From positions 124,001 to 188,000 of the forward strand of contig NZ_JAHBGE010000063.1 in NCBI RefSeq assembly GCF_018390635.1: a DNA stretch of 64,000 bases, given 5' to 3'. Source of the stretch: Ancylobacter lacus. Its GTDB lineage: Bacteria; Pseudomonadota; Alphaproteobacteria; Rhizobiales; Xanthobacteraceae. The first letter of the stretch is position 1; the number at the start of each line of letters is the position of its first letter. Positions 3,812 through 19,853 of this stretch are shown in pieces. A model generated the notes under the pieces. The model searched no databases, was not told where the DNA came from, and saw only the letters and a program-made list of their open reading frames with translations. A program made the translations under genes and the position numbers.

Positions 3812-3856
3812 GGCGTCTGTTCCTTTTCTCGTTGAAGACGTTGTTCCGCCTGGCGC

Positions 3857-4573: not shown

Positions 4574-4576
4574 GGC

Positions 4577-5236: not shown

Positions 5237-5259
5237 TGCCGGTTCCTCCCGCCGCGGCT

Positions 5260-6105: not shown

Positions 6106-6197
6106 TCCATTCTCCCGTTCGGCGCGTCGGCGATGTTGCGTCTGCGAAGAGGCTAGGATCGCCCGCGTCCGCCCGCTAGCATCATTAAATCAGTGAA

Positions 6198-6218
6198 GCG
6201 CTGCCTTTTTGGCAGCGC
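6198..6218. promoter_or_regulatory. Perfect inverted repeat in lysR leader
   Basis: An exact 8-bp inverted repeat, GCGCTGCC, with a TTTTT spacer and GGCAGCGC, sits in the 129-base divergent region between the binding-protein gene (6105) and the LysR-type gene (6235). It lies 17 bases before the lysR ATG. It could be a regulator-binding site or a leader hairpin in the lysR mRNA. The usual LysR T-N11-A signature is not obvious in it, so the role is inferred from position only. Confidence 0.4.
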
Positions 6219-6234
6219 CCATCGGGAGCCCGCC

Positions 6235-7170
6235 ATGCTGCACTCGCGCCTCATGCGCTACATCGACGAGGTCGCCCGCGCGGGATCGATGCGGCAGGCC
6301 GCCGAGCGGCTCGGCATCGCCTCCTCGGCGATCAACCGGCAGATCCTCGCCTTCGAGGAGGAGCTTGGCGTGGCCGTGTTCGAGCGGCTGTCGAGCGGGG
6401 TGCGGCTGACGGCGGCCGGCGAGCTGCTGGTGGAGCACATCCGCGCGACGCTGAAGGACCATGCCCGCACCATCGGCCGCATCAGCGATCTCAAGACGCT
6501 GCGCCGCACGCGGATAAACGTGGCAACGCTGGAAGCCCTGACCGCCGACGTGCTCGCCCCGGTCGTCAGCGCCTGGCACATGACCTACCCGCTGACACGC
6601 ATCACCCTGACCGCCATGCCGGCCGACCGCATCGCGCTCGCGGTCGGCGAGGGGGAGGCGCAGTTCGGCCTCGGCTTCGACCTTCCCCCACAGCCGAACC
6701 TCAACATCTACAGCAGCACGCGCTGCAGCGTCGGCCTCGTGGTGGGGCCGGACCACCCGCTCGCGACGCGCAGCAGCGTCCGGGCAAGCGATCTCGCCGG
6801 GCACGCCTTCGCCCTGCCGGCGGAAGGGCTCACCTTGCGGACGATCTTCGACCGGCTCACCCGGCGCTCGCGCCTGTCGATCGAGCCGATCGTGGAGAGC
6901 AACTCCATCGACCTCCTGAAGCGCCTGGCGCGGCTCAGCGATCTCGCCACCGTGCTGACCCGCGCCGATGTCGAGCTGGAGCGCCTCGGCGGCACGCTGA
7001 CCTTCGTGCCCATCCTGTCGGAGGAGGTGAGCTGGCAGACGCTGGTCATCGTCCACCGCTCCAGCGCCCAGCTCTCCGGCCTCACCATGCGTTTCGCCGA
7101 GAAGCTCGCCGACGTCGTCCAGCAGATCGGCGACGGGGGAGCCGGGGAGCGCAGCTTCCCCGGCCGCTGA
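6235..7170 (+). CDS. LysR-family transcriptional regulator
   Basis: LysR-type regulator: an N-terminal winged helix-turn-helix (about residues 1-60; RYIDEVARAGSMRQAAERLGIASSAINRQI) followed by a periplasmic-binding-protein-like effector domain. Length is 311 residues from ATG 6235, preceded by GGGAG. A GTG at 6193 would add 14 residues, but it lies before the leader inverted repeat and its product looks non-conserved. It is divergent from the operon of amino-acid-type importer, DUF1989 and DUF917, which it most likely controls in response to the transported compound. It converges with the FAH gene ending at 7207. Confidence 0.9.
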   Translation: MLHSRLMRYIDEVARAGSMRQAAERLGIASSAINRQILAFEEELGVAVFERLSSGVRLTAAGELLVEHIRATLKDHARTIGRISDLKTLRRTRINVATLEALTADVLAPVVSAWHMTYPLTRITLTAMPADRIALAVGEGEAQFGLGFDLPPQPNLNIYSSTRCSVGLVVGPDHPLATRSSVRASDLAGHAFALPAEGLTLRTIFDRLTRRSRLSIEPIVESNSIDLLKRLARLSDLATVLTRADVELERLGGTLTFVPILSEEVSWQTLVIVHRSSAQLSGLTMRFAEKLADVVQQIGDGGAGERSFPGR

Positions 7171-7206: not shown

Positions 7207-8397
7207 CTAATGCCCAAGCAGGTTGCGGCGGGCGAGGTTCTCCATCAGCGCCAGCGTTCCGAAGGTCCATTCCGGGATGGCGTCGGAGCGCTCCACCCAG
7301 TTGACCAGCGTGCCGAGTTCCGGCGTGTGAATCCGCACCTCGTCGCCCATGTGATGGGTGAAGCCGAGGCCTTCGCCCTCGCGGTCGACCACCGGGGCGA
7401 ACATGGTGCCGAGGAACAGCACGAAGCCGTCGGGATATTGATGCGCCCGGTTGATGGTCTGGCCGACCAGATCGGCCGGGCTGCGCGAGATGCGCGCCAT
7501 CTCGCTGACGCTTTCCAGCTTGAAACCCTCCGGTCCCTCCACATTCAGCGTCACCGTCATCCGCCCGGCATCGGCCAGGGAGAAGCCGGCGTCGAACAGG
7601 CGGATGAAGGGGCCGATGGCGCAGGAACCGTTATTGTCCTTCGCCTTGCTCAGCAGCAGCGCCGAGCGGCCTTCCACATCGCGCAGATTGACATCGTTGC
7701 CGAGGGTGGCGCCGCGGATTTCGCCGCGCGCATTCACCACCATCACCACCTCCGGCTCGGGGTTGTTCCATTGCGAGATCGGGTGCAGGCCGATCTGCGC
7801 CCCGCAGCCGACGCTCGACATGGGCGGCACCTTGGTGAAGATTTCCGCGTCCGGCCCGATGCCGACCTCCAGATATTGCGACCAGTAGCCGAGCTCCTGC
7901 AGCAGCGCCTTGGCGCGGGAGGCGGCTTCCGAGCCCGGCACGATGGCGCTGAGCCGGTCGCCGACCGCCCGGTGCAGGTCCCGGCGGATGGCCTCGGCCG
8001 CCGACGCGTCGCCCTTGGTCCGTTCGTCGATCACCCGTTCCAGCATGGAGTCGACGAAGGTTACCCCCGCCGCCTTCACCGCCTGCAGGTCGATGGGCGC
8101 CAGCAGCCGGCCGGCCGGGCCTTCGCCGCCGGCGCCGAGATAATCGGCCAGCGCGCCGAGATCGGGATAGGCTGCCGCCTCCCGCGGGAACCAGCCGGGA
8201 AGGTTCATCAGCCCCGCAAGGGTCGGCGCCACGGCGGAGAGGTCGCGCACCCGCCCGTCGGCGACCAGCACCGGGCAGGGCCCGCCGGCCGCGTGCGACC
8301 ACACCCGCCCGATGAGAACCGCGTGGGGATCGGCGGGCAGGATTTCGCCGGGCGTGAGCGGGCGGACACGGGATCGGGGCAGGGCAGGGTCGGTCAC
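7207..8397 (-). CDS. Fumarylacetoacetate hydrolase family protein
   Basis: FAH-superfamily enzyme. Relatives are metal-dependent hydrolases or decarboxylases of beta-diketo acids, including the last step of non-phosphorylative sugar-acid pathways. Length is 396 residues from a GTG at 8397, 20 bases after the DUF3445 gene. The C-terminal FAH fold is seen in the acidic metal-site segment NNPEPEVVMVVNARG, then GATLGNDVNLRDVEGRSALLLSKAKDNN and the terminal PVVDREGEGLGFTHHMGDEVRI. The N-terminal half is the longer form found in sugar-acid clusters. It is the last gene of the operon starting at 14603, so I infer it cleaves or decarboxylates a late intermediate of that pathway. Confidence 0.87.
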   Translation of the reverse strand: MTDPALPRSRVRPLTPGEILPADPHAVLIGRVWSHAAGGPCPVLVADGRVRDLSAVAPTLAGLMNLPGWFPREAAAYPDLGALADYLGAGGEGPAGRLLAPIDLQAVKAAGVTFVDSMLERVIDERTKGDASAAEAIRRDLHRAVGDRLSAIVPGSEAASRAKALLQELGYWSQYLEVGIGPDAEIFTKVPPMSSVGCGAQIGLHPISQWNNPEPEVVMVVNARGEIRGATLGNDVNLRDVEGRSALLLSKAKDNNGSCAIGPFIRLFDAGFSLADAGRMTVTLNVEGPEGFKLESVSEMARISRSPADLVGQTINRAHQYPDGFVLFLGTMFAPVVDREGEGLGFTHHMGDEVRIHTPELGTLVNWVERSDAIPEWTFGTLALMENLARRNLLGH

Positions 8398-8417
8398 GGC
8401 GGGGTCTCCGGCTGCGG

Positions 8418-9446
8418 TCAGAACGGCGCCCGTCCGGGCGCCAGCGGGGCGCCGTCGTCGAACGGCGCGAGATAGGCGACGAGGTCGTCGCGGAACGGCA
8501 CCGCCTTCGCCCGGGCGACGGCCGGATCGAGGTCGCGCAGCACGCGGTGAAGACGCGCCGCCCATTTCGGCACCGTCGCGATTTCGGACAGGCGCGCCAT
8601 GTACACGCGGATGGCGAACAGGATCACATGGCTGCGCCGCAGCCGGTAAAGCTGCTGCACCTCAACGCGCAGAAGCAGATTCCGGCCAAGGTCCGCCGGC
8701 GGCGCTCCCTCATAGAGCCCGGCCCATTCCGCGGCGGTCTCCAGCCCGTTATCGAGGCGCGGGGTGACGCAGATGACCCAGTTGGGGCGGCGGACCTGCG
8801 TCTCCGGCTGCATCCGCAGCGCGAAGGCGAGGCCGCGCTCGATGGCCGCCTGTTCGCGCTCGCCCGTCACCTCGCCATGAATCTCGCGCCAGCTCATGCC
8901 GAGATCGAAGGGCAGGGACCAGCCCTGCGCCGCCGTGAGCATTCCGCCGTCGAGATAGAGCATGTCGCCGCGCTGGGCGAGCAGCACCATGTCGCCCTGG
9001 GTCTGTCGGGCGATGTACTCGAAGGGCGGGCAGGGCAGGCTGTCGGGGTCGCCGAACCGGAAGCTCTGGTCGATGCCGAGCGCCGCGTTGCGCCAGCGCC
9101 AGCGGCGTCCGTCGCGGTCAAGCCTGAACAACTGGGGAAAGTCGCGGGCGAGGCTGCTCATCACCAGCTCGACCACGTCCCATTGGGCGAGGTCGAGATG
9201 CGGCAGCAGCGTGCAGCGTTGCGGGTCGCGCGCCAGCACGAAGGCCTTCTCTTCTATCTCGGCGCGGTAATGCGCGTCGACGTCGAACAGCGCCCGCAGC
9301 GCCGCGCACGGTCCCGTGCGGTCGTTCTGTTCGAGGTTGGCCGCCGTTTCGTAGCGGTCGGCAGCGAAGGGAAAGGGAAAGCGCAGCAACGTCTCCCGCG
9401 CATTGCAGAAGGTCAGCGCGTTGCGGAAGGTCTGCGGTTCGGTCAT
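8418..9446 (-). CDS. DUF3445 heme-dependent oxidative N-demethylase subunit
   Basis: DUF3445 protein, the catalytic-type subunit of heme-dependent oxidative N-demethylases such as dimethylamine monooxygenase. These enzymes remove N-methyl groups as formaldehyde using O2 and electrons from a partner reductase. Length is 342 residues. Typical parts seen: N-terminal FPFPFAADRYETAANLEQ, DDLVAYLAPF near the end, the central GDMVLLAQRGDMLYLDGGMLTAAQGW-type segment with WSLPFDLGMSWREIHGEV, and LRVEVQQLYRLRRSHVILFAIRVYM. It starts 15 bases after the reductase gene. The remaining subunits are the two genes upstream. Substrate is not dimethylamine by necessity; the sugar-type transporter in the operon argues for a larger N-methyl compound. 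Confidence 0.87.
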   Translation of the reverse strand: MTEPQTFRNALTFCNARETLLRFPFPFAADRYETAANLEQNDRTGPCAALRALFDVDAHYRAEIEEKAFVLARDPQRCTLLPHLDLAQWDVVELVMSSLARDFPQLFRLDRDGRRWRWRNAALGIDQSFRFGDPDSLPCPPFEYIARQTQGDMVLLAQRGDMLYLDGGMLTAAQGWSLPFDLGMSWREIHGEVTGEREQAAIERGLAFALRMQPETQVRRPNWVICVTPRLDNGLETAAEWAGLYEGAPPADLGRNLLLRVEVQQLYRLRRSHVILFAIRVYMARLSEIATVPKWAARLHRVLRDLDPAVARAKAVPFRDDLVAYLAPFDDGAPLAPGRAPF

Positions 9447-9461
9447 GACCCCGTTCTCCCC

Positions 9462-10406
9462 CTAGAGGTCCAGCGTCAGCGCATCGTCGCGGGCGCGCGA
9501 CACGCAGGCGAGCATCACCTTGCCGCCGGCGCGCTCTTCGGCGTCCAGCACCCGGTCGCGGTGCTCGGGCCGGCCGGCGAGCACGCCGACGCGGCAGGCG
9601 CCGCATACGCCGCCCCGGCACAGATACGCGACGCTCACCCCGGCGCTCTCCAGGGCCTCCAGCAGCGACTGGCCGGCGCAGACGGAAAGCCGCCCGCCGG
9701 AGCGCGCCAGCCGCACCTCGAAAGCCTGTCCCTCGGCGGCCGTGAAGCGCTCCACATGGACCCGTGCCGGCACCCAGCCCGCCTTGGCCGCCTCCCCGCA
9801 CACCGTCTCCAGAAAGGCGGCGGGACCGCAGGCGGACAGATGGGTGTCGAGCGGCTGATCGAGCCAGTCCGGCCAGCACAGCGCGGCGCGGCCGTCGAGA
9901 AGGGTGATGCGGGCGGGATCGAACGGCGCGGTGAGCCGCGCGAAGGCGGCGCGCTCCTCCGGCCGGACGATCTGCACCAGATGCCAGTCGACCTGCGGGG
10001 GGAACGCCCGAGCGTAGGCGAGGAAGGGGGTGAGGCCGATGCCGGCCGACAGGAGGAGATGGCGCCGCGCGCCCGCCGCCGGCGCGAAGAAATTGCGCGG
10101 CGGGCTGACGCTGAGCCGGGCGCCGACCGCCAGCCCGTGCAGCCGATGCGACACACCGTCGGGCCGCTCGGACCGCCGCACGACGATCTCGTAGCCCGCC
10201 ATGGTCTCGGGATCGCCGATCAGCGAATAGGCGGCGGCGCGGCCGGTGCCCGGCACACGCACGAGGAGATGGGAGCCGGGCGAGGCCGCCATCGGCGCCC
10301 GGTCGCACGGCAGCAGCCGCAGCCGGCGCAGCCGGGGCGACAGGTCCTCGATCTCCGCGACGCGGACCTCCCGCTCCGCCGCTCCGAGGCGGTTCCCGGT
10401 CAGCAT
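9462..10406 (-). CDS. Flavin/2Fe-2S oxidoreductase (phthalate dioxygenase reductase type)
   Basis: PDR/VanB-type reductase passing electrons from NAD(P)H through flavin and a plant-type 2Fe-2S cluster to an oxygenase, here probably the DUF3445 subunit. Length is 314 residues. Domains in order: flavin-binding barrel with RAAAYSLIGDP (about residues 80-90), nucleotide-binding domain with LLSAGIGLTPFLAYARAF, and a C-terminal ferredoxin domain with the cluster motif CRGGVCGACRVGV plus a final cysteine in VMLACVSRA. The ATG at 10406 overlaps the end of the zinc-ribbon gene by 7 bases, showing coupled translation. All four cluster cysteines are present, so it should be redox active. Confidence 0.92.
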   Translation of the reverse strand: MLTGNRLGAAEREVRVAEIEDLSPRLRRLRLLPCDRAPMAASPGSHLLVRVPGTGRAAAYSLIGDPETMAGYEIVVRRSERPDGVSHRLHGLAVGARLSVSPPRNFFAPAAGARRHLLLSAGIGLTPFLAYARAFPPQVDWHLVQIVRPEERAAFARLTAPFDPARITLLDGRAALCWPDWLDQPLDTHLSACGPAAFLETVCGEAAKAGWVPARVHVERFTAAEGQAFEVRLARSGGRLSVCAGQSLLEALESAGVSVAYLCRGGVCGACRVGVLAGRPEHRDRVLDAEERAGGKVMLACVSRARDDALTLDL

Positions 10407-10855
10407 GGCACGCCGAGGCACGCGCCGAGCCGGGGGGAAAGCTGGCGGCGCACCGCGAGCCGCGCGCCGCAGGCACAGTTGATGTGGGCGGCATCGGCCG
10501 GCACGAGCGCGGTGCTGCGGCACGCGGCGCAGACGACGCGGCGCAGCCGTCCCTCCACCGGATGCTGCCGGATTTCATCGGCAAGCATGCCCGCCGCCAG
10601 GGCCGCCGCGGTGAGCTGGGCGAGAAAGGCGTGCCCGCCGCTCAGATAAAGCCGCTCGCCGATCCGGGCCACCGCCAGCCGGCGGGTCAGCGCGGTGGCG
10701 AGATCGTCGAGGCTGGCATGGGTCTCGCCCAGCCGCCAGGTGCACACGTCCGCGACACCGGCGGCGCCGGGAGTCGCGACGTGTTCGTCGAGGATCACCA
10801 GATGGCGGCGGCCATCGGGGTCGAGGCCCGGCGCAGCGGTGTCCGCTCGATCCAT
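10400..10855 (-). CDS. Dimethylamine monooxygenase small-subunit-like zinc-ribbon protein
   Basis: Small protein of 151 residues matching in position and layout the accessory subunit of dimethylamine-monooxygenase-type N-demethylases (DmmA-family in current annotation). Seen: a middle region LYLSGGHAFLAQLTAAALAAGMLADEI, and a C-terminal metal-binding ribbon with VVCAACRSTALVP followed by INCACGARL, i.e. a CxxC and a CxC pair. This could hold zinc or an iron centre. It is cotranslated with the reductase (7-base overlap) and follows the SDR gene by 28 bases. Identification rests on gene order and the cysteine ribbon more than on whole-length similarity. Confidence 0.7.
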   Translation of the reverse strand: MDRADTAAPGLDPDGRRHLVILDEHVATPGAAGVADVCTWRLGETHASLDDLATALTRRLAVARIGERLYLSGGHAFLAQLTAAALAAGMLADEIRQHPVEGRLRRVVCAACRSTALVPADAAHINCACGARLAVRRQLSPRLGACLGVPC

Positions 10856-10883
10856 GCGCGTGTTCCCGCCCCGGCCTGCCGTC

Positions 10884-11642
10884 CTAGGACTTGCCTTCCG
10901 GCAGGGTCTGCCCGCCGTCGATCAGGATGGAGGTGCCGGTGACGAAGCCGGCCTCCGCCGAAGCGAGATAGGCGACCGCTCCGGCCACGTCGTCCGGCGT
11001 GCCGATCCGGCCGATCGGAATGGATCGGGTCATGGCGTCGATGAAATCGGCGCTGCGACCGGCGGTCAGCCCCTCGGTCATGATGTTGCCCGGCTCGACG
11101 GCGTTGACCGTGATGCCGAAGCCGGCGAATTCCAGCGCCGCGGTCTTGATGAAGCCGTTGATGCCGGCCTTGCTGGCGGAATAGGCGGCGGTGCCGCTGG
11201 CGGTGACGCGCGGGCCGGTGATGGACGAGGTGAAGACCATGCGCCCGTAGCGCTGGGCCTGCATGGCGGGCAGCACGGCGCGGCAGGCATAGAAGCTGCC
11301 GGTGAGGTTTACGGCGAGGACACGCTGCCACTGCGCCGGCGAGGTTTCGGCGATCAGGCTTTCGGGATAGATGCCGGCATTCTGCACGAGAATGTCGATG
11401 CGTCCGAAGCGCGCCAGGGTGAAGGCCGCCAGGGCTTCCAGCGCCTCGGCGTCGGCGACGTCCACGCCCATGGACGTTGCCTCGCCCGGCAAGGCATCGG
11501 CCACCTCAGCGGCGCCCTGCGCGTTGAGGTCGGCGACGACGACGCTCGCCCCCTCGGTCGCCAGCCGGTGTGCAATGGCTCGTCCAATTCCCTGTGCCGC
11601 CCCGATCACGATCGCGGTGCGGCCGGCCATGCGCGCATGCAT
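10884..11642 (-). CDS. SDR family oxidoreductase
   Basis: Classical short-chain dehydrogenase/reductase, NAD(P)-dependent, acting on alcohol or sugar hydroxyls. Length is 252 residues from ATG 11642, chosen because GGGAG lies 6 bases upstream; another ATG at 11660 adds six residues. Seen: cofactor motif GAAQGIGRA, DVADAEAL, QNAG, catalytic Ser in FTSSITG and the YSASK pair (Y and K), and a C-terminal GTSILIDGGQTLP typical of glucose/fucose-dehydrogenase-like SDRs. It follows the sugar-binding protein gene after a 61-base gap holding a hairpin, and precedes the N-demethylase genes. I infer oxidation of a hydroxyl or hemiacetal of the imported compound. Confidence 0.92.
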   Translation of the reverse strand: MHARMAGRTAIVIGAAQGIGRAIAHRLATEGASVVVADLNAQGAAEVADALPGEATSMGVDVADAEALEALAAFTLARFGRIDILVQNAGIYPESLIAETSPAQWQRVLAVNLTGSFYACRAVLPAMQAQRYGRMVFTSSITGPRVTASGTAAYSASKAGINGFIKTAALEFAGFGITVNAVEPGNIMTEGLTAGRSADFIDAMTRSIPIGRIGTPDDVAGAVAYLASAEAGFVTGTSILIDGGQTLPEGKS

Positions 11643-11671
11643 GCCTTGCTCCCTGTTCATGCCCGTCGGGA

Positions 11672-11694
11672 GCCGGCGGCGCGGTGCCGCCGGC
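11672..11694 (-). promoter_or_regulatory. Intra-operon hairpin after binding-protein gene
   Basis: Perfect 9-bp stem (GCCGGCGGC / GCCGCCGGC) with a 5-base loop in the 61-base gap between the binding-protein stop (11704) and the SDR start. GC-rich hairpins after binding-protein genes commonly stabilise the upstream mRNA or partly terminate, giving excess binding protein over downstream enzymes. There is no T-run, so full termination is unlikely. Confidence 0.55.
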
Positions 11695-11703
11695 CCGTCG
11701 TTC

Positions 11704-12663
11704 TTACTTGCAGGACGTCTTGTAGAAGGCGGCCTTGATGCTCGGCTCGTTCATGTTGGCGCGGGTCACGACCACCGACGGCAGGAAGTGGTCGTGCTGC
11801 ACATCCGCCTTCTTCACCTCGCCGCGCAGGATGGCGGCGAGGTTCTTCACGGCGTCGTAGCCCATCTGGTAGGGCTCCTGGACGATGAGCGCGTCATAGA
11901 CGCCGTCGCGCAGGTCGCGGATCTGCTGGGGGTCGGCGTCGAAGGACACCAGCTTGATCTTGCCGCGCAGGCCGGCTTCCAGAATGGCGGCGGAGGCGCC
12001 TTCGGCCGCGGCCGAATGGGTGACATACACCCCCTTGATGTCGGGATTGGCCTGGATGGCCGCCGCCACCTGCTGCGCCGCCTTGGTGGACGAGGTCTCG
12101 GGGTAGAGCACCGGCAGGATCTTCGCCTTGGGATTGGCCTTGCTGAAGCTGTCGATGAACCCCTTCACCCGGGCGTCGATGTCGGGAAGGCCCGGCCGCA
12201 TGCCGACCACCACGAAGGTGCCTTCGCCGCCCGCGACCTCGCCCATCGCCTTGCCGGCGGCCTCGCCGCCGAGATAGTGGTTGGACTGGATGCTCTGGGT
12301 CTCCACCGGCTTGTCGAGCGGGGCATCGACGGTGATGACCGGCGTGCCCGCCTTCTCCAGCGCCTCGACCTGCGAGACCAGCGCGCCGCTGTCGGTGGGA
12401 GAGAGGATCACGCCCTCGGGCTTGAGCTGCAGGGCCGCGTCGATGAAGGGCTGCTGCTTGGCGATGTCCCAGTCCGGCGGGCCGTCCCAGGTCAGCTTCA
12501 CGTCGAACTCGCCCGCGGCCTTCTCCGCCCCGCACTGCATGGAGGTGTAGAAGGGGATACCCACCTGTCCCGGCAGCGCCGCGATGGTGACCGTCTTGGC
12601 GGATGCCGGCACCGCCGCCAGCAGCACGATGGCTGCAACACCTGACTTCAACGCGCTCTTCAT
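11704..12663 (-). CDS. Sugar-type ABC transporter substrate-binding protein
   Basis: Periplasmic binding protein of the ribose/galactose class (Peripla_BP_4, RbsB-like). Length is 319 residues from ATG 12663 with AGGAG upstream. Signal peptide MKSALKSGVAAIVLLAAVPASA. Mature hallmarks: VTIAALPGQVGIPFYTSMQCGAEKAA, LKPEGVILSPTDSGAL, VITVDAPLD, FVVVGMRPGLPDIDARVKGFID, and KLVSFDADPQQIRDLRDG, the usual hinge-spanning blocks. It belongs with the permease and single-NBD ATPase just upstream. This class binds sugars, polyols or related ring compounds, so the ligand is probably polyhydroxylated; the downstream N-demethylase suggests it also carries an N-methyl group (inference). Confidence 0.93.
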   Translation of the reverse strand: MKSALKSGVAAIVLLAAVPASAKTVTIAALPGQVGIPFYTSMQCGAEKAAGEFDVKLTWDGPPDWDIAKQQPFIDAALQLKPEGVILSPTDSGALVSQVEALEKAGTPVITVDAPLDKPVETQSIQSNHYLGGEAAGKAMGEVAGGEGTFVVVGMRPGLPDIDARVKGFIDSFSKANPKAKILPVLYPETSSTKAAQQVAAAIQANPDIKGVYVTHSAAAEGASAAILEAGLRGKIKLVSFDADPQQIRDLRDGVYDALIVQEPYQMGYDAVKNLAAILRGEVKKADVQHDHFLPSVVVTRANMNEPSIKAAFYKTSCK

Positions 12664-12726
12664 CAGCTGTTCTCCTGTGAGGAATCTGGAAGGTTGCTGT
12701 TCTTGTTTGGACGGCACGCGAACGGC

Positions 12727-13824
12727 TCAGCGGCTCATGCGCTGGCGGTTCTTCTGGTCGATGGCCACCGCGACGATGACGATGATTCCGACCACGATCA
12801 GCTGGTAGAAGGCGTCCACCCGCATGATGACGAGACCGGTGGCCAGCACGACCGGGATCAGCGCCCCGATCACGGTGCCGCTCATCGAGGCGACGCCGCC
12901 GAAGAGGCTGGTCCCGCCGATCACCGAAGCGGCGATGGCCTGCAGCGCATCGGTCTGGTGACCGGAGATGTTGGTGGTGGCGAAGCGCGAGATGTCGAGC
13001 ATCGCCGCCGCCGCCGACAGGCAGCCCATCAGCACGAAGAGCGACAGCACGTGGCGGTCCACCGGGATGCCCGCCCGCCGCGCCGCTTCCGGCGAGGAGC
13101 CGATGGCCAGGGTGTGGGCGCCGAAGCGGGTCTTGGCGAGCACGAACCACAGCACCGCCAGCACGCCGGCCACGATCACCACCGGCATCGGCACCCCGCC
13201 GAGCACCCGGCGCACGGCAAAGCCGGTCTGCAGCGCGCGGGGTATGTCGGGAACATTGGCGCCATGGGTGATGACCAGTGCCATGCCGAGGCCGATCGCG
13301 GTCGTGGCGAGGGTGACGAGGAAGGAGGACAGCCTGAAGCGCGTCACCAGCACCCCGTTCACCGCCCCGAACAGCGCTCCCGACAGAAAGGCGACCGCCG
13401 TGCCCGCGGCAATGGCCAGGGCGAGGTTGGGGTAGTCGCCCATCGCGACCTCGTCCGGCGTTCCGGCGAGGGCGGTGATGGTCTTGCCGGCCAGCACCGA
13501 GGCCAGCACGACGTTGGAGCCGACCGACAGGTCCATCTGCCGGGCGCCGAGCAGGAAGGTCATGCCCGCGGCGAGAAGGGCAAGCTGCGCGGTGTTGAGC
13601 GCGATGGTGAAGAGGTTGTTCACGCTCAGGAACACGAAGTTCGGCGAGATCAGCGTGAAGCCGGCCACCAGCCCGATGAGGATGACGAACATCCAGAAGG
13701 CGGTGGCTTCCAGGACGCCCAGTCGGTGGCCGTGGGAGCCGGCCGGGAGGGAGGCGTCGCTCATCGTCGGGGTCTCCGCTGTCGGGGTTGCCGGTTCGGG
13801 GGAGGCGGGCGGGTTCGGGCTCAT
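12727..13824 (-). CDS. Sugar-type ABC transporter permease
   Basis: RbsC/BPD_transp_2-type inner-membrane permease, 365 residues. The ATG at 13824 overlaps the ATPase stop (ATGA), so this start is well supported over the longer open frame to 14085. After a Pro-rich cytoplasmic N-terminus come about eight to ten hydrophobic helices (FWMFVILIGLVAGFTLI, LAALLAAGMTFLL-like, VVIVAGVLAVLWFVLA and others). Family marks are ARQMDLSVGSNV, GAVNGVLVTRFRLSSFLVTLATTAIGLG, GIPVDRH and VIGGTSLFGGVASMSGTVIGALI. It sits between its ATPase and its binding protein. A homodimer would form the channel. Confidence 0.93.
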   Translation of the reverse strand: MSPNPPASPEPATPTAETPTMSDASLPAGSHGHRLGVLEATAFWMFVILIGLVAGFTLISPNFVFLSVNNLFTIALNTAQLALLAAGMTFLLGARQMDLSVGSNVVLASVLAGKTITALAGTPDEVAMGDYPNLALAIAAGTAVAFLSGALFGAVNGVLVTRFRLSSFLVTLATTAIGLGMALVITHGANVPDIPRALQTGFAVRRVLGGVPMPVVIVAGVLAVLWFVLAKTRFGAHTLAIGSSPEAARRAGIPVDRHVLSLFVLMGCLSAAAAMLDISRFATTNISGHQTDALQAIAASVIGGTSLFGGVASMSGTVIGALIPVVLATGLVIMRVDAFYQLIVVGIIVIVAVAIDQKNRQRMSR

Positions 13825-14603
13825 GCCGCCTCCCGGGCGCCGAGCATGATGTCGACGATGTCGCGCACGCTGACCTGCGCCGGCAGCACATTCGCCACCG
13901 CCCGGCCCTGCCGCATGACGATGATGCGGTCGGCGAGCTCCAGAACCTGCGGCAGGTCGTGGGAGATCAGCAGCACGGCGAGGCTGCGGGCGGCCGATTT
14001 GCGGATGGCCTCGTAGACCATGTCGCGCTGGCGGGCGCCGAGCGCGGCGGTCGGTTCGTCGAGCAGGATGGCATGGCGGGCCCATTTCAGCGCCCGGGCG
14101 ATGGCCACGCCCTGCCGCTGGCCGCCGGACAGCGACTGGGTCGCCGCGCGATAGGACTTGATGCGCACGCCGAGCTCGACCAGCACGGCGTGGGACTCGT
14201 CCAGCATCCGGCGGCGGTCGATCATGCCGAGCCTGCCGCGCAGCCCCGGCTGCAGCAGTTCGCGACCGAGAAAGATGTTGGCGGGAATGCTGAGGTCCGG
14301 CCCGAGGGCGAGGTCCTGATAGACCGTCTCGATGCCGTAGCGCTGGGCGTCCTGGGTGGAGCGGAACGCGACGGCGCGCCCGCCGATCCGCAGTTCGCCG
14401 GCATCGGGAATATTCTCCCCGCTCAGCGTCTTCATGAAGGTCGACTTGCCGGCGCCGTTGTCGCCGACCACCGCCGTCACCTCGCCACGGCGGAGCGCGA
14501 TGGAGACACCACGCAGCACATTGAGCGAGCCGAAATTCTTGACGATATCGACCGCTTCGATCGCGTAGCCGCCCTGCGTCGGGTCGGCCGCCTGTCCGCT
14601 CAT
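13821..14603 (-). CDS. Sugar-type ABC transporter ATPase, single NBD
   Basis: ATP-binding subunit of a sugar ABC importer. Length is 260 residues, half the size of RbsA-type tandem ATPases, as in FrcA-like systems where two copies dimerise. Seen: Walker A GDNGAGKST, Q-loop VYQDLAL, signature LSGGQRQGVAIARAL, Walker B AILLDEPTAAL and the switch His in LLISHD. It is the first gene of the minus-strand operon 14603-7207. The putative LacI operator at 14646-14663 lies 43 bases upstream of its start codon, where repression would block the whole operon. Confidence 0.94.
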   Translation of the reverse strand: MSGQAADPTQGGYAIEAVDIVKNFGSLNVLRGVSIALRRGEVTAVVGDNGAGKSTFMKTLSGENIPDAGELRIGGRAVAFRSTQDAQRYGIETVYQDLALGPDLSIPANIFLGRELLQPGLRGRLGMIDRRRMLDESHAVLVELGVRIKSYRAATQSLSGGQRQGVAIARALKWARHAILLDEPTAALGARQRDMVYEAIRKSAARSLAVLLISHDLPQVLELADRIIVMRQGRAVANVLPAQVSVRDIVDIMLGAREAA

Positions 14604-14645
14604 GGAACCCCCTGGACCTCTCGGGTTGTCAGCGCGGCGCTGAGA

Positions 14646-14663
14646 TACGTAATCGATTGCTTA
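14646..14663. promoter_or_regulatory. Putative LacI operator before transporter operon
   Basis: TACGTAATCGATTGCTTA, an imperfect 18-bp palindrome centred on CG between 14654 and 14655. It shares TAATCGATT with sites at 14891-14908 and 17386-17403 and 8 of 9 left-half bases with the perfect 17386 copy. LacI-family proteins bind palindromes with a central CG. It lies 43 bases before the ATPase start. Confidence 0.75.
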
Positions 14664-14890
14664 TTGCCATTCGCGGCGCAAGCCCGAATTTGCCGCCGGA
14701 GGTCTTCAGGCCGCGGAATTCTTCAAAATCCGATATGTTTGCTGCGGTTCTGTGCGTGTTGCTTGTCAATTGGACAGCGGCTGATGACGTGCTGTGCAGC
14801 CGCGGGTGCCACATTCCGCGCTGCCCTGTCAGTGCCGGTGTCCTGGCGCAAGCTGTTCTCTCACTTGCGTTTTGTCGCCGTCCTGGTGTT

Positions 14891-14908
14891 TAGTTAATCG
14901 ATTGCAGC
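14891..14908. promoter_or_regulatory. Putative LacI operator before lacI gene
   Basis: TAGTTAATCGATTGCAGC, sharing the central TTAATCGATTGC with the other two sites and centred on CG at 14899/14900. It ends 22 bases before the lacI ATG at 14931, a position suited to autorepression. It and the 14646 site could also be bridged by one tetramer or cooperate across the 245-base spacing. Confidence 0.7.
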
Positions 14909-14930
14909 CCTTGAGGATTCCGCCGCTCCC

Positions 14931-15959
14931 ATGCCACCACGCAGACCGACCATGCAGGATGTGGCGAAGGCCGCCGGCGTCTCCAGCGCGACGGTCTCGC
15001 GGGTCTTCTCCGGCCAGAAGGGGGCCATGTCGAACGAGACGGCCGAGCGGGTGCGCAAGGTCGCCGACGATCTCGGCTATGTCGTGAACACGCTCGCCGC
15101 CAGCCTGCGGGTCCAGCACACCAAGTCCGTCGGCCTCATCCTCGCCGACGTCGCCAATCCGTTTTTCGGCAAGCTGGCGAGCGGGGTCGAGAACACGCTG
15201 AGCGCGGCGGGCTTCGGCGTCATCCTGGGCAACTCCAGCAACCGGATCGAGGAAGAAACCCGGCTGCTGCGGCTGATGATGCAGAAGCAGGTGGACGCCA
15301 TCATCCTCGCCAGCGTCGCCAGCAATGGCGAGCATTTGCGCGATGTGCTCGGCCAGGGCCAGACCATCATCCTCGTCGACAGCGACCTGCCGGGCACCCC
15401 GCTCGATGCCGTGGTGATCGACAACCGCGCCGCCGCCGCGCACGCGGTCGGCCACCTCCTCGATCTCGGCCATCGGCGCATCGCGATCGTCTGCGGCCCG
15501 ATGACCGCTTCCTTCGACCGGGAGCGCCTCGAAGGCTATCGCGCCGCCTTCCGCCAGCGCGGGCTGGAGCCCCCGGAAGATCTCGTGCTCTACGGCGATT
15601 CCACCTATGACGGCGGCAAGGCGGCGGTGGAGGAGATGCTCCTCAGCGAGGCGCGCCCCACCGCGCTGTTCGCCTCGAACAACCTCATGACCATCGGCAC
15701 GCTGGCGGCGCTGCACGAGGTCGGGCTCGCCATTCCCGGCGACATCTCGGTGGTCGGCTTCGACGACCTCGAATGGTACGCGATCTTCAAGCCCCGCATC
15801 ACCGCCGTCGCCCAGCCGGCCTTCGCCATCGGGCGGACCGCGGCCCGCCGCCTGCTCGATCGCCTGAAGCTCGCCACCACTCCGCCGCCGCGCCGCTTCG
15901 TGCTGAACACCGACCTCATCGTGCGCGACAGCACCGCGCCCCTCCATTCCACGCCCTGA
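14931..15959 (+). CDS. LacI-family transcriptional regulator
   Basis: LacI/GalR regulator, 342 residues from ATG 14931. The N-terminal HTH and hinge are clear: TMQDVAKAAGVSSATVSRVFSG (about residues 7-28) and GYVVNTLAASLRVQHT. The rest is a sugar-binding-protein-like effector domain with VGLILADVANPFFG, DAVVIDNRAAAAHAVGHLL, RRIAIVCGP, ALFASNNLMTIGTLAAL and ISVVGFDDLEWY. It is divergent from the sugar-type ABC operon and 34 bases upstream of the amidohydrolase gene, with which it probably shares a transcript. Three TAATCGATT palindromes nearby are its likely targets, and the imported compound or an early metabolite its likely inducer. Confidence 0.94.
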   Translation: MPPRRPTMQDVAKAAGVSSATVSRVFSGQKGAMSNETAERVRKVADDLGYVVNTLAASLRVQHTKSVGLILADVANPFFGKLASGVENTLSAAGFGVILGNSSNRIEEETRLLRLMMQKQVDAIILASVASNGEHLRDVLGQGQTIILVDSDLPGTPLDAVVIDNRAAAAHAVGHLLDLGHRRIAIVCGPMTASFDRERLEGYRAAFRQRGLEPPEDLVLYGDSTYDGGKAAVEEMLLSEARPTALFASNNLMTIGTLAALHEVGLAIPGDISVVGFDDLEWYAIFKPRITAVAQPAFAIGRTAARRLLDRLKLATTPPPRRFVLNTDLIVRDSTAPLHSTP

Positions 15960-15993
15960 TGCCGGCCGATGCCGGATCACCCGAGAGCTTCCC

Positions 15994-16851
15994 ATGCCCG
16001 ACTTCCCCGTCATTGACGCGCATGTGCATTTCATCGCCCCCGGGCGGCTGTCCTACCCGTGGCTGGCCACCGTTCCGGCGATCGACGCCCCCCACGGCCC
16101 GACGCAGTACCGTGCCGCCACCGGCAGGACGGTGGTCGACAGGCTGCTCTTCGTCGAGGTCGATGCCCGGCCGGAGGATCGCTTCGCCGAGATGGCCTAT
16201 GTCGCCGAACTCCGGGCCGAAGAGCCGCGCCTTGCCGGCGTCGTCGCTTCCGCGCTGCTGGAGCGCGGCGCGGCGGCTGCCGAGGAGATCGAGCGGCTGC
16301 GGGCGCTTGGGCGGCTCAAGGGCATCCGCCGGCAGATCCAGAACCGCAGCGAACCCGGCTGGTGCCTCGCCGCGCCGTTTCTGGAGGGCGTGCGGATGCT
16401 GGCCCGCTACGACCTGCCCTTCGACATCTGCATCAAGCATCATCAATTGGCGGAGGCCACCGAACTGGTGCGGCGCTGCCCGGAGGTGACCTTCGTGCTG
16501 GATCACATCGCCAAGCCGCCCATCGCGGCCGGCGGGCTCGAGCCGTGGGCCACCGGGCTGCGGGCCATGGCCGCGCTGCCGAATGTGGTGTGCAAGATGA
16601 CCGGGGTGACCACCGAGGCGGATCACGCCTCCTGGCGGCACGAGGACGTCCGCCCCTATATCGACCACGCCTTCACATGCTTCGGCACCGAGCGCATGCT
16701 GTTCTGCAGCGACTGGCCGGTCATCAACCTGTCGGACAGTTTCGAGGGGTGGGTCGCGACGCTCGACCGCGTGCTGGAGGGCGTCAGCGCCGAGGCCCGC
16801 CGCGCCTTCTACCGCGACAACGCCATTCGCACCTATCGTCTTGAGGTTTGA
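15994..16851 (+). CDS. Amidohydrolase family 2 protein (lactonase type)
   Basis: Metal-dependent hydrolase of the amidohydrolase-related/TIM-barrel family (COG3618-like), whose members open sugar lactones (fucono-, rhamnono-lactone) or 2-pyrone-4,6-dicarboxylate. Length is 285 residues. Metal-site and family motifs: VIDAHVHF (HxH at residues 9-11), FDICIKHHQL, VLDHIAKPPI and LFCSDWPVINL (Asp of the barrel end). It follows lacI by 34 bases. Beside an SDR and an FAH hydrolase it fits an oxidative route: sugar-like compound to lactone to acid. Which lactone is not shown by sequence. Confidence 0.88.
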   Translation: MPDFPVIDAHVHFIAPGRLSYPWLATVPAIDAPHGPTQYRAATGRTVVDRLLFVEVDARPEDRFAEMAYVAELRAEEPRLAGVVASALLERGAAAAEEIERLRALGRLKGIRRQIQNRSEPGWCLAAPFLEGVRMLARYDLPFDICIKHHQLAEATELVRRCPEVTFVLDHIAKPPIAAGGLEPWATGLRAMAALPNVVCKMTGVTTEADHASWRHEDVRPYIDHAFTCFGTERMLFCSDWPVINLSDSFEGWVATLDRVLEGVSAEARRAFYRDNAIRTYRLEV

Positions 16852-16880
16852 AGCGGGGACGTCGCACCCGAACGGGCGGC

Positions 16881-17345
16881 TCAGCCCGCCGCCGTTTCCC
16901 CGGCGAGCTGGGCGCGCAGCGCCATCAGCAGCCGGCCGAGATGATTGTCGCCCGCGCCCTCGAACAAGCCCCAGAAGCGGGCCACGGGACTGTCCTCCGG
17001 CGACCACTCGACGAGGGTGGCCGTCCCGGTCGACAGCAGCAGGCTGCGGAACGGCTCGTCGGCGAATTTCGCCCGGAGAATGCGGGCCATCACCGAAAGC
17101 TGCCCGGTTTCCCAGCCGGGTGTCGTCTGTTCCGCGGTGAGGGCATCGCCCGCGGCGGCGCTCAGCTCCGGCGTCGGAGCCGCCGCCAGCCAGGCCTTCA
17201 TCTCCGCCTCGCGAGCCCGGTAGACCTGGAAGGCATGCTCCGGGGTCGCATAGGTTACGCCCTCGAACCGCAGGGGCACGGGGTGAAGGTTGCTGAGGCC
17301 GCAGAACGGGCCGCGGCGGGGATCATAGAACCGAATGACGGACAC
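16881..17345 (-). CDS. NADAR-domain protein
   Basis: Single NADAR (DUF1768, YbiA-like) domain. Members are N-glycosidases acting on riboflavin-pathway intermediates, and others remove ADP-ribose from guanine. About 154 residues. Family motifs: VIRFYDPRRGPFCGLSNLHP, the YATPEHAFQVYRA helix, QTTPGWETGQLSVMARILRAKF and the C-terminal DNHLGRLLMAL. I prefer the GTG at 17345; the longest frame starts at a TTG at 17387 inside the palindrome at 17386-17403, which would put the operator in the gene. It is divergent from the PLP enzyme and convergent with the amidohydrolase gene, so it may share the LacI control region. Confidence 0.82.
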   Translation of the reverse strand: MSVIRFYDPRRGPFCGLSNLHPVPLRFEGVTYATPEHAFQVYRAREAEMKAWLAAAPTPELSAAAGDALTAEQTTPGWETGQLSVMARILRAKFADEPFRSLLLSTGTATLVEWSPEDSPVARFWGLFEGAGDNHLGRLLMALRAQLAGETAAG

Positions 17346-17385
17346 GACATCACCGTTGACAAGGCGGACGGAGGTGGGGATTGTC

Positions 17386-17403
17386 AACGTAATCGATTAC
17401 GTT
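17386..17403. promoter_or_regulatory. Perfect 18-bp palindrome, putative LacI operator
   Basis: AACGTAATCGATTACGTT is an exact 18-bp palindrome centred on CG, between the NADAR gene and the PLP-enzyme ATG at 17412. It is the consensus-like version of the two imperfect sites flanking the divergent promoters at 14646 and 14891. It overlaps the only space available for the PLP-gene promoter, so bound repressor would block transcription. Confidence 0.78.
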
Positions 17404-17411
17404 CGTCAAGG

Positions 17412-18359
17412 ATGCCCTGTGTGATCAAGCTTGCCGATGTGGAGGCCGCCGCCGCGCGGATCGCGCCGATGATCCGCCGGACGCCGCTGCTCCGGTTCGA
17501 CCGGGCGCGCGAGCCGTTCTGTGCCAACGACCTGTTCCTGAAGCTCGAATTTCTGCAGCCGACCGGCTCCTTCAAGGCGCGTGGCGCGACCAACAAGCTG
17601 CTCACCACCCCGAAGGAGGCGCTGGCCAGCGGCGTCGTCACCGCCTCGGGCGGCAATCACGGTCTCGCCGTCGCCCGGGCCGCCTATGTCAGCGGCGTGG
17701 CGGCCACCATCTTCGTGCCGAGCGCGGTGACGGCGGAAAAGCATCAGCGCCTGTTGAGCTGGGGTGCGGATGTCCGCGTGGTCGGCACGGTGTTCGACGA
17801 GGCGAACGAGGCGGCGCAGGCCTTCGCCCGCGAGCGCGGCGCCGCCTTCTTCCACCCCTTCGCCGATCCGGCGGTCGTTGCCGGGCAGGGCACGATCGGC
17901 CTCGAAATCCTCGAAGACCTGCCGGACGTCGACGTCATCATCATCGCCATCGGCGGCTGCGGCCTCATGGCCGGCATCGCCACGGCGGTGAAGGCACTGA
18001 AGCCCTCGGTGCGGCTGGTCGGGGTCGAGCCGGAAGGCTCGCCGACGCTGCACGATTCGCTCGCCGCCGGCCGGGTGGTGCGCTTGCCCAAGGTGACCAC
18101 CCGCGTCGCGACCATGGCCTGCGGGCGGACCGACGATCGTGTCTTCGATACCGTGCGCCCGGCGGTCGATCACATCGCGCTGGTTTCCGATGAGGAGATG
18201 GCCGCCGCGGCGCGGCGGCTTTGGGACGAACTCGGCATCGCCGCCGATCTGAGCGGTGCGGCGGCGCTGGCGGGTCTCGCCTCCAACCGGATCGCGCTCC
18301 GGCCGGGCGAGACGGTGTGCGCGCTGGTCTGCGGCGCCGGCAGCGACATTTTCCGCTGA
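17412..18359 (+). CDS. Threonine/serine dehydratase-like PLP enzyme
   Basis: Fold-type II PLP enzyme of the threonine dehydratase/serine racemase group: beta-elimination of hydroxy-amino acids to keto acids and ammonia. Length is 315 residues from ATG 17412. Seen: cofactor Lys in PTGSFKARGA (about residue 54), the phosphate-adjacent SGGNHGLAVA, a glycine loop IAIGGCGLMAGIA (usually GGGGL, here GGCGL) and a C-terminal GAGSD. There is no regulatory ACT domain, so it is the catabolic short form. The palindrome at 17386-17403 lies 9 bases before its start, placing it in the inferred LacI regulon, perhaps deaminating an amino intermediate after N-demethylation. Confidence 0.9.
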   Translation: MPCVIKLADVEAAAARIAPMIRRTPLLRFDRAREPFCANDLFLKLEFLQPTGSFKARGATNKLLTTPKEALASGVVTASGGNHGLAVARAAYVSGVAATIFVPSAVTAEKHQRLLSWGADVRVVGTVFDEANEAAQAFARERGAAFFHPFADPAVVAGQGTIGLEILEDLPDVDVIIIAIGGCGLMAGIATAVKALKPSVRLVGVEPEGSPTLHDSLAAGRVVRLPKVTTRVATMACGRTDDRVFDTVRPAVDHIALVSDEEMAAAARRLWDELGIAADLSGAAALAGLASNRIALRPGETVCALVCGAGSDIFR

Positions 18360-18492: not shown

Positions 18493-19461
18493 CTACTCGA
18501 AGAAATCCTCGTCGATTTTCTTGACGTGCAGCACCTCCTCGATCCGGCATCCGACATTGTGACGTATCATCAGTCGGGCCAGATGCTCGCCATTGACCAG
18601 CACAATGCGTTTGCTGAGGTAATCGGCCGTCTGGCGGGCGCTTTCGGTGAAGGTCGAGGTCGTGACAAAAAGGCCCTTGGCGGCCTTGTGCCGGTCGAGA
18701 CTGCCGAAGAAGTCGCGGATCGCGCCCGACCCGACACTGTTGCCGGATGCGTAACGCTTGGCCTGGATATAGACGCGATCCAGCCCCAGAGCGTCCTGAT
18801 CGATCACCCCGTCCACGCCATCATCCCCGCTGCGCCCGAGCGCCCGGCCGGCCTCGGCGGCGGATCCACCATAGCCCATGGCGAGGAGCAGATTGACGAT
18901 GAGCCGTTCGAAGAATTCCGGCGGGGCCAAGCGCACACGGTCCAGCAGTTCCTCGGCCAGTGCGGTCTCGATCCGCCGATGGGCGGCACGCATCACCTCA
19001 TCGGGTGTCTGTTCGACCGCCATGGGCGGCGCTGCAAGGGTCAGATCGACCGCCGCCGCCACCGCCCGCGTCAACGCATCGGCCGGTTCGGCCGGTTCAG
19101 CGGCGCGCGCGGTAAACTGCCGGAACTCGTCGAAGCGGGATAGAAAACGGTTGTCTATCCGGTCGGGATTGTCGGCAAGCACGGCGCTGCCGCGGGGGGT
19201 AAGGCGGAAGTGGCCGCGCCGGGTACTCTCCACAAGACCGGCCTTGGCGAGATAGGTCTTGGCCCAATGGACGCGGTTGGCAAAGACTGTTTGCCGGCCG
19301 GACGCCAGAAGGGTCGCTCGCGCGCCGTCACTGAGGCCCAGCTCACCGGCCAGGCGCTCAACGACCGCGCCGATGCGCTGTTCGCCGCGCGCCGCCGCGC
19401 GCAGCACCGGCAGCATCAGGCTCTGATAATCGGGAACGTCGTCCGTGGCACTCAACCCCAT
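18493..19461 (-). CDS. mrr: Mrr-type restriction endonuclease
   Basis: Type IV (modification-dependent) restriction endonuclease of the Mrr family, expected to cut DNA carrying foreign methylation. Length is 322 residues from ATG 19461, which has GGAGG close upstream; the frame to 19635 is Pro/Arg-rich and looks untranslated. Domains: N-terminal Mrr winged helix (about residues 10-95; LMLPVLRAAA, VHWAKTYLAKAGLVES, HFRLTPRG), then the nuclease core with PPEFFERLIVNLLLAMGYGG, GDDGVDGVIDQD (Asp about 217) and YIQAKRY (Q233, K235), i.e. the intact D...QxK site. No methylase or partner gene is adjacent. It lies next to tRNA-Asn. Confidence 0.92.
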   Translation of the reverse strand: MGLSATDDVPDYQSLMLPVLRAAARGEQRIGAVVERLAGELGLSDGARATLLASGRQTVFANRVHWAKTYLAKAGLVESTRRGHFRLTPRGSAVLADNPDRIDNRFLSRFDEFRQFTARAAEPAEPADALTRAVAAAVDLTLAAPPMAVEQTPDEVMRAAHRRIETALAEELLDRVRLAPPEFFERLIVNLLLAMGYGGSAAEAGRALGRSGDDGVDGVIDQDALGLDRVYIQAKRYASGNSVGSGAIRDFFGSLDRHKAAKGLFVTTSTFTESARQTADYLSKRIVLVNGEHLARLMIRHNVGCRIEEVLHVKKIDEDFFE

Positions 19462-19777
19462 CCCTCCAATACCTTGGCGAAGAGAGGACGGAGCAATACA
19501 CATTACCGACGCAACTTCCACAGGCGGGCCGTTGGAGAGTTTGGACGGGCCTTCGCGGTCTTCGTGACGGCGGGGGCACCATGTCGGGCGACGCCACAGG
19601 CCCCAGCCCTGCGGCCCGCGAGGCGGGCGGGGCATTGGCGTGGGCCAAGAAAGGTCAGCTAAAGCCGTGGACGGATGATGGGCAAGCCGCCGGTGCGGAC
19701 AGGCGAGTCACCGGACAGTGCTGGGCGGCCTGAAAGCAAGGATCGGGAAAACAGAGGCGCCACCGAGGGTGGATAAA
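19462..19777. other. Gene-free stretch upstream of mrr
   Basis: The 316 bases between the mrr start and the tRNA-Asn 3' end. It must hold the mrr promoter and the tRNA downstream region. The open frame read through part of it from mrr (19462-19635) is Pro/Arg-rich and not convincing as protein. I see no repeat of the tRNA 3' end that would mark an integration site. Confidence 0.5.
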
Positions 19778-19853
19778 TGGCTCCCTGAGCAGGACTCGAA
19801 CCTGCGACCATTCGATTAACAGTCGAACGCTCTACCAACTGAGCTATCAGGGA
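19778..19853 (-). tRNA. tRNA-Asn (GTT)
   Basis: Reads on the minus strand as a full cloverleaf of 76 bases with encoded CCA. The acceptor stem TCCCTGA (19853-19847) pairs with TCAGGGA (19788-19782), discriminator G, then CCA. D-arm TAGCTCAGTTGGTAGAGC, anticodon loop CTGTTAA giving GTT, and T-arm with GGTTCGAGTCC are all regular. Anticodon GTT reads asparagine codons. Confidence 0.97.

Follow-up and report, generated by a model that had tools for sequence, protein, structure and literature searches.

A candidate LacI regulon of Ancylobacter lacus that links a sugar-type importer to a divergent haem oxygenase

The window analysed here, a stretch of 64,000 nucleotides of the Ancylobacter lacus genome (RefSeq assembly GCF_018390635.1, contig NZ_JAHBGE010000063.1, positions 124,001 to 188,000; genome of 4.63 Mb in 90 contigs), carries a cluster of twelve genes at positions 7207-18359 which, judging by where the predicted operators lie and by synteny with another genome, appear to make up a single LacI regulon. 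The genes encode an ATP-binding cassette (ABC) importer of the CUT2 or ribose class, a short-chain dehydrogenase/reductase (SDR), a homolog of the haem-dependent oxidative N-demethylase (HODM) with two partner proteins, an FAH-superfamily protein, a LacI-family regulator, an amidohydrolase, a NADAR protein and a pyridoxal phosphate (PLP) enzyme. We see about an even chance that this regulon, which was probably gained horizontally, serves the use of an N-alkylated sugar-like compound for carbon as well as nitrogen; the most likely substrate would be an amino sugar with a methyl or other substituent on its nitrogen.

Predicted operators and conservation

The palindrome GYAATCGATTRC was derived from the gap between lacI and the importer genes in two genomes, that of the window and genome G241, which belongs to another family of the same order and carries a related cluster (locus L083); it was searched for elsewhere afterwards. 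The palindrome occurs upstream of the importer genes, upstream of lacI and in the gap between the NADAR and dehydratase genes, and in this last gap the exact sequence was found in both the window and L083 after the motif had been defined elsewhere. The pattern TAATCGATTR has three sites in the A. lacus genome, all within the cluster (reversed control: none), which supports a single regulon of twelve genes; exact GYAATCGATTRC occurs twice, both times in the cluster. In the L083 stretch five operator sites with at most two mismatches were counted against 2.04 expected, a number reached by 7 of 200 shuffles, and four of the five L083 sites (at most one mismatch) sit in the three cluster gaps. The regulator has the helix-turn-helix and ligand domains of the LacI family, with palindromic sites, the predicted operators, at the promoters, and LacI presumably binds at all three places. 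The first-pass annotation of this DNA had already assigned the importer, the HODM set, the SDR, the lactonase-type enzyme and the PLP dehydratase to one LacI regulon, with which the three operator places and the synteny in L083 agree.

Eleven of the twelve genes are kept in L083 with unchanged order and relative orientation, and in all eleven codon positions 1 and 2 are more conserved than position 3; the cluster is therefore more than a chance assembly. Identities range from 82% for the binding protein through 78% (ABC ATPase), 72% (permease), 70% (LacI), 69% (SDR), 67% (amidohydrolase and PLP enzyme), 64% (HODM) and 61% (NADAR) down to 50% for the reductase and 42% for the DmmA-like protein. 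The importer and the N-demethylase genes, on whose association the first-pass annotation had staked its reading, lie together in the L083 cluster as well.

Outside these two genomes the cluster appears to be rare. Searches with the binding protein gave the A. lacus genome as the sole match among 30 genomes of the genus (E 1e-60), 385 of the class (E 1e-80) and 398 of the phylum (E 1e-50), and G241 itself as the only one of three genomes of its own family (E 1e-100), so that no third copy was found in these samples; the samples overlap, and in those of the class and phylum scoring was limited to five candidates per genome. The family sample (198 genomes) and the order sample (397 genomes) were searched with HODM only, and in the latter G241 was the only genome besides A. 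lacus with more than 60% identity. For the HODM of L083 the best other match in a phylum sample of 398 genomes was 53% identical, and a HODM scan of the genome contigs gave two relatives only, at 46-47%. This patchy occurrence among the searched genomes suggests that the cluster was gained horizontally.

Gene organization

The features of the cluster are, with coordinates in the window:

7207..8397, minus strand: FAH-superfamily protein, 2-keto-3-deoxy-sugar-acid dehydratase-like; 396 amino acids from GTG 8397; Pfam FAA_hydrolase 35.3 bits
8418..9446, minus strand: HODM alpha or DmmC-like putative haem N-dealkylase of a divergent subfamily; PF11927 181.3 bits, cut-off 25
9462..10406, minus strand: DmmB-like flavin/2Fe-2S reductase; FAD_binding_6 and Fer2; CxxxxCxxC motif
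10400..10855, minus strand: DmmA-like zinc-ribbon subunit; DmmA-like_N 28.9 bits, DmmA-like_C 25.3 bits; C109, C112, C127, C129
10884..11660, minus strand: SDR dehydrogenase; start at 11660, 11642 or 11630; adh_short_C2 215 bits; GxxxGxG and YxxxK
11704..12663, minus strand: CUT2/ribose-class substrate-binding protein; ATG 12663; Peripla_BP_4 194 bits; best PDB entries 5dkv, 4rxt, 4wut
12727..13824, minus strand: CUT2 permease; ATG 13824; BPD_transp_2 107.7 bits
13821..14603, minus strand: importer ABC ATPase with a single ABC domain, 260 amino acids; ABC_tran 95 bits; Walker A, LSGGQ, Walker B
14649..14660, plus strand: predicted operator copy 1, on the upstream side of the importer operon; GTAATCGATTGC, exact match
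14894..14905, plus strand: predicted operator copy 2, on the upstream side of lacI; TTAATCGATTGC, one mismatch to GYAATCGATTRC
14931..15959, plus strand: LacI-family regulator; LacI helix-turn-helix 53.7 bits, Peripla_BP_3 128 bits
15994..16851, plus strand: Amidohydro_2 protein, lactonase-like; PF04909 164.5 bits; PDB 4dlf, E 9.8e-27
16881..17387, minus strand: NADAR/YbiA-like putative N-glycosidase; PF08719 68.7 bits, cut-off 35.1; YbiA structure 2b3w, E 1.8e-15
17389..17400, plus strand: predicted operator copy 3, in the gap between the NADAR and PLP dehydratase genes; GTAATCGATTAC, exact palindrome
17412..18359, plus strand: Ser/Thr-dehydratase-like PLP enzyme; PALP 281 bits in the long open reading frame; SFKAR; best PDB entries serine racemase and threonine deaminase

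Eight genes run head to tail on the minus strand from 14603 to 7207, in the order ABC ATPase, permease, binding protein, SDR, DmmA-like protein, reductase, HODM and FAH protein. Pfam matches bear out the first-pass description of these genes and their domains and of the divergent LacI and Amidohydro_2 genes, and the cofactor and catalytic motifs of the families were found in the cluster proteins. That description also called the spacing tight, which holds for the 4-base overlap of the ABC stop (13821) with the permease ATG (13824) and for the 7-base overlap of the DmmA stop (10400) with the reductase ATG (10406). The remaining gaps, put there at 61 bases or less, measure 9-63 bases depending on the choice of start codons; the permease/binding-protein gap, for example, is 63 bases with ATG 12663 and 9 with GTG 12717, and the FAH gene starts 20 bases past the HODM stop. 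The families listed earlier were all recovered, and to them has to be added the NADAR gene at 16881-17387, which had been overlooked and needs explaining too.

Two neighbouring regions were noted. Past the end of the operon, at 3131-7170, lie a DUF1989 gene, a family-3 solute-binding protein gene and a LysR regulator gene, apparently a separate unit. On the other side, an Mrr-type restriction endonuclease gene (18493-19635) adjoins the PLP gene and is followed by tRNA-Asn (19778-19853).

The haem oxygenase and its partner proteins

The only solved relative found for the cluster HODM is 5lte, a heme dependent oxidative N-demethylase (E 9.9e-91), to which it is about half identical. Its partner genes are adjacent, and gene order together with the four cysteines places the small subunit with the DmmA proteins, the Pfam matches themselves being below the cut-offs (28.9 against 33 bits for DmmA-like_N, 25.3 against 27.4 bits for DmmA-like_C). 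To our knowledge, dimethylamine (DMA) use is the only role that has been assigned to this haem PAS oxygenase family.

For the HODM tree 22 loci were omitted by a hand-made list intended to take out repeats of longer loci, and the script also removed duplicates, sequences containing a stop and most of those with fewer than 250 aligned residues; two remote tree rows were removed before columns were counted. We give 58 of the 61 aligned rows the working label DMA-type. These 58 rows share a mean mutual identity of 71% (minimum 60%), and the window HODM is on average 46.9% identical to them. All 61 rows agree in 64 columns. The DMA-type rows have 119 near-invariant columns, of which 69 are unchanged in the window, L083 and L036 copies alike, L036 being a locus on a plasmid of Agrobacterium sp. 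T29 (NZ_CP040642.1, 213782-238789). The window and L083 copies are joined with support 100/98, and this pair is joined with L036 with support 98/99, a placement that may be a long-branch effect. The kinship of the L036 protein is only suggestive, since a DMA-type row (48.2% identity) follows close behind its best match, the L083 copy (50.7%); to the window HODM it is 46% identical. The amino-acid make-up of the window HODM was flagged as odd, with several columns changed that the L083 copy keeps. The predicted structures were too poor for use (mean predicted local distance difference test score 46.0 for the binding protein and 41.8 for HODM).

DmmD, which according to one paper likely joins formaldehyde to tetrahydrofolate (PMC5520151), offers a second comparison. 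We counted DmmD/GcvT-like genes at 30 HODM loci of at least 12 kb, one of them the query's own and with the remote locus L053 excluded. At 26 of them the stretch also contains such a gene, with 1.1-6.7 kb between HODM and the nearest copy; the matches are 30-64% identical to the query (own locus aside), and those at the lower end may belong to other proteins of the GcvT family. None was found at L036, L047 (a truncated stretch), L083 and L089, nor in the window (window searched at E 1e-4, L083 at E 1e-6). As the gene is absent from both copies of the cluster, the oxygenase might act on another N-alkyl group or by O-dealkylation.

The identity of about one half with 5lte and the DMA-type rows could mean that the cluster HODM is a plain dimethylamine monooxygenase which adjoins a sugar operon by chance. 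We regard this as highly improbable and rejected it: the protein is divergent, lies inside an operon in two families and has no DmmD/GcvT-like gene nearby, and the A. lacus genome has a separate HODM (L042) that groups with the DMA-type rows and has a GcvT-like gene about 5.5 kb off at 32% identity and another at 36%, both within 7 kb. A third, remote PF11927 protein of the same genome (L053, G000:C77) is 26% identical and branches with one from a member of the genus.

A tentative alternative, possible though on the doubtful side, is that the HODM subfamily has left dimethylamine metabolism and become an N-dealkylase for amino sugars or N-glycosides, working with a catabolic N-glycosidase of the NADAR family and the PLP dehydratase.

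Importer, dehydrogenase and amidohydrolase

A Peripla_BP_4 binding protein, a BPD_transp_2 permease and an ABC ATPase occur together, as in CUT2 importers. Regions around relatives of the next two enzymes also hold such genes: one SDR relative (54% identity) ends a CUT2 importer operon, the only such region read out of six matched records, and one amidohydrolase relative (58%; the only region read of 230 records) lies near SDR, mannitol-dehydrogenase-family and CUT2 genes. The closest PDB entry of the amidohydrolase is 4dlf, which we take to be an L-fucono-lactonase.

Among NCBIfam models the rhizopine binding protein (rhzpin_SBP) is the best for the binding protein, though its score of 98.8 bits is far from the cut-off of 420. 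Together with the missing DmmD/GcvT-like gene in both cluster copies and the altered near-invariant columns of HODM, this model suggests a rhizopine-like route, in which the importer would take up a methylated or aminated cyclitol, the oxygenase would be an O-dealkylase or oxidative deaminase, and the ring would open after oxidation. Such a route is unlikely in our view, given the low model score, the retention in HODM of the 64 columns invariant over 61 rows, and the lack, in the Pfam results for the cluster, of domains characteristic of other moc genes, though no search was aimed at moc genes. Mycosporine-type substrates were also considered and dropped as speculation; among the papers listed in a literature search no title dealt with mycosporine breakdown.

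PLP enzyme, FAH protein and NADAR protein

An open reading frame of 503 residues (16848-18359) contains the PLP enzyme. The PALP match starts at residue 206 and the first 188 residues are antisense to the NADAR gene; the long frame was rejected, and ATG 17412 is the likely start. The first-pass annotation had counted this gene in the lacI run. It has to be taken out of that run because the NADAR gene lies between and a predicted operator copy of its own stands in front of it (17389-17400). Of 107 plasmid records that matched the PLP enzyme, three annotated regions were read (L140, L141 and L142), and in all three a close relative (57-63%) directly follows a gene of the AstE/aspartoacylase (succinylglutamate desuccinylase) type; the importers differ, and the L142 region also has LacI and CUT2-like genes. 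Since an N-deacylase-type gene precedes the PLP relatives in these three regions, removal of an N-substituent ahead of the PLP dehydratase may recur elsewhere.

The best PDB match of the FAH protein is 9kkt (E 1.4e-117), followed by 2q18, '2-keto-3-deoxy-D-arabinonate dehydratase' (E 3.2e-16); it presumably also resembles Caulobacter XylX. The earlier assignment of carbon-carbon cleavage to this protein was dropped, as its relatives dehydrate 2-keto-3-deoxy acids and the L083 cluster lacks its gene. The genome of L083 holds two FAH relatives elsewhere (57-58% identity), one of them near dehydrogenase and sugar-kinase-like genes, as judged by eye from open reading frame starts only. This neighbourhood, and the fact that SDR, lactonase-type and XylX/AraD-type FAH proteins are the kinds met in pentose pathways, would suit an ordinary, Weimberg-like pentose regulon with HODM and NADAR as passengers or as detoxifiers of a side compound. 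We hold this to be very unlikely: neither an IlvD/EDD-type nor an enolase-type sugar-acid dehydratase was seen in the cluster, the FAH gene is the sole one that is not conserved, and the HODM trio, NADAR, the PLP gene and the operator places are conserved across families.

The NADAR protein has EHAFQ and LVE at the places aligned with YbiA, in keeping with membership of the NADAR/YbiA group, and by our own reading the glutamate of LVE would be the one in the last strand that a NADAR paper mentions (PMC11125620). The same paper gives NADARs as annotated N-glycosidases, suggests a role with riboflavin intermediates, describes reversal of guanine ADP-ribosylation and connects the family with at least four processes; its wider roles are said to be poorly understood. 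NADAR exceeded the Pfam cut-off in one of 30 genomes of the genus, A. lacus itself and in this cluster; one other genome of the sample gave a sub-threshold match. Of 35 plasmid records matched, three regions with NADAR relatives (44-47%) were read, on Bosea, Rhizobium and Sphingomonas plasmids (L103, L104, L105). The neighbours of these relatives are a helix-turn-helix gene and either a PfkB-type kinase or a HAD gene, large hypothetical genes also recur, and one region has RidA and oxidoreductase genes further upstream.

These observations bear on the strongest competitor of the proposed pathway, in which the substrate is an N-glycoside (glycosylamine) that NADAR cleaves first into a sugar and an amine part. 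The pentose or hexose would then pass to the SDR, the lactonase and the FAH dehydratase, and the amine or N-alkyl beta-hydroxy amino acid to HODM and the PLP enzyme, so that every cluster gene would have a use. The operator gap shared by NADAR and the PLP enzyme in both genomes, the finding that only this NADAR passed the Pfam cut-off in the genus sample and the N-glycosidase annotation speak for it. The known substrates of NADAR proteins are phosphorylated ribosylamino-pyrimidines and ADP-ribosylated guanine, however, the papers listed in the literature search gave no precedent for a catabolic NADAR, and none of the three NADAR regions read has a flanking importer operon. We therefore regard the N-glycoside as rather unlikely, if more plausible than a cyclitol or a plain pentose.

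Proposed pathway and relation to known systems

In the pathway that we favour, use of an N-alkylated amino-sugar-like compound, the CUT2-class importer would take up the substrate, the SDR would oxidize the sugar at C1, and the resulting lactone would be opened by the Amidohydro_2 enzyme. HODM, its reductase and the DmmA-like protein, a DmmABC-type haem oxygenase, would remove the N-substituent oxidatively. The PLP enzyme may then eliminate ammonia from a 2-amino-3-hydroxy acid to give a 2-keto-3-deoxy acid, which in this strain the FAH-type dehydratase would dehydrate on the way towards central metabolism. NADAR might act hydrolytically on the substrate or an intermediate when either is present as an N-glycoside or glycosylamine. 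In its general outline, the chemistry set out in the first-pass annotation, with sugar, amine and sugar-acid steps, fits.

Each part of the cluster belongs to a known family; the combination, the divergent HODM and the apparent catabolic setting of NADAR are novel variations on known types. Like DmmABC/HODM systems, the cluster has three subunit genes, two of them overlapping, in the order DmmA, reductase, HODM, and it keeps the invariant HODM columns; it differs in the identity of its HODM (46.9% as against 71% among rows of the known type), in having no DmmD/GcvT-like gene and in its place within a sugar importer regulon. With CUT2 importers under LacI control it shares the binding protein, permease, ATPase and lacI genes, whereas its ATPase has one ABC domain, no kinase or isomerase is present among the cluster genes and oxygenase genes follow. 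Weimberg-type oxidative non-phosphorylative pathways likewise employ an SDR, a lactonase (here of the amidohydrolase type) and a 2-keto-3-deoxy-acid dehydratase, which the FAH protein resembles. In the window, however, a PLP dehydratase replaces the IlvD/enolase-type dehydratase, and a search confined to the cluster genes showed neither an IlvD/EDD-type dehydratase nor a semialdehyde dehydrogenase domain. The NADAR protein resembles YbiA in its Pfam score above the cut-off and in the glutamates at aligned places, but it lies in an apparent catabolic regulon and not with riboflavin or ADP-ribosyltransferase genes.

The L036 plasmid locus provides a second sugar-type setting for HODM. There, too, the HODM trio stands among sugar-acid genes without a DmmD-like match, the neighbours being SDR, mandelate racemase-type, aldolase, aldehyde dehydrogenase and acetolactate-synthase-like genes. 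Genes for a PLP dehydratase, RidA and an SMP-30-type lactonase are also close by. It differs in its importers and regulator, in having no NADAR match and in its HODM, which is 46% identical and on a long branch. Among the papers listed in a literature search, none describes the gene set of the cluster, as judged by titles and the starts of abstracts, and none has a title on N-methylglucosamine catabolism. For Ruegeria pomeroyi, one paper gives dmmDABC and the genes of sugar ABC transporters as separate entries, not one cluster.

Several points weigh against the proposed pathway and the regulon on which it builds. Allowing one mismatch to GYAATCGATTRC gives six sites in the A. lacus genome, three inside the cluster and three outside (reversed control: one), and allowing two leaves the window without an excess (three found against 5.0 expected, which 87 of 100 shuffles reach). 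The importer-side sites of L083 carry one mismatch each, and one of the three TAATCGATTR sites in its genome, where the reversed control also gives three, lies outside the cluster; this outlying site is next to a LysR-looking gene, as judged by eye. The gene set was found in two genomes only, counting L083, whose cluster has the eleven other genes and no FAH gene. The window HODM is a fast-evolving row, with an end branch of 0.84 as against 0.13 for the L083 copy. The Pfam results for the cluster contain no domain that would deal with a semialdehyde or with formaldehyde, and the NADAR protein, which fits loosely, is the least well explained part.

If true, the reading of HODM, NADAR and the PLP enzyme as acting together would describe a hitherto undescribed, oxygen-dependent route for N-substituted sugars. 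A conserved sugar regulon around a divergent HODM would widen the chemistry of this family to such sugars, and NADAR, the wider roles of which are called poorly understood in the paper cited above (PMC11125620), would gain a place in a catabolic pathway. The cluster would point to a class of compounds eaten by bacteria that is as yet without a name, and candidate substrates can be tested directly with the binding protein and LacI.

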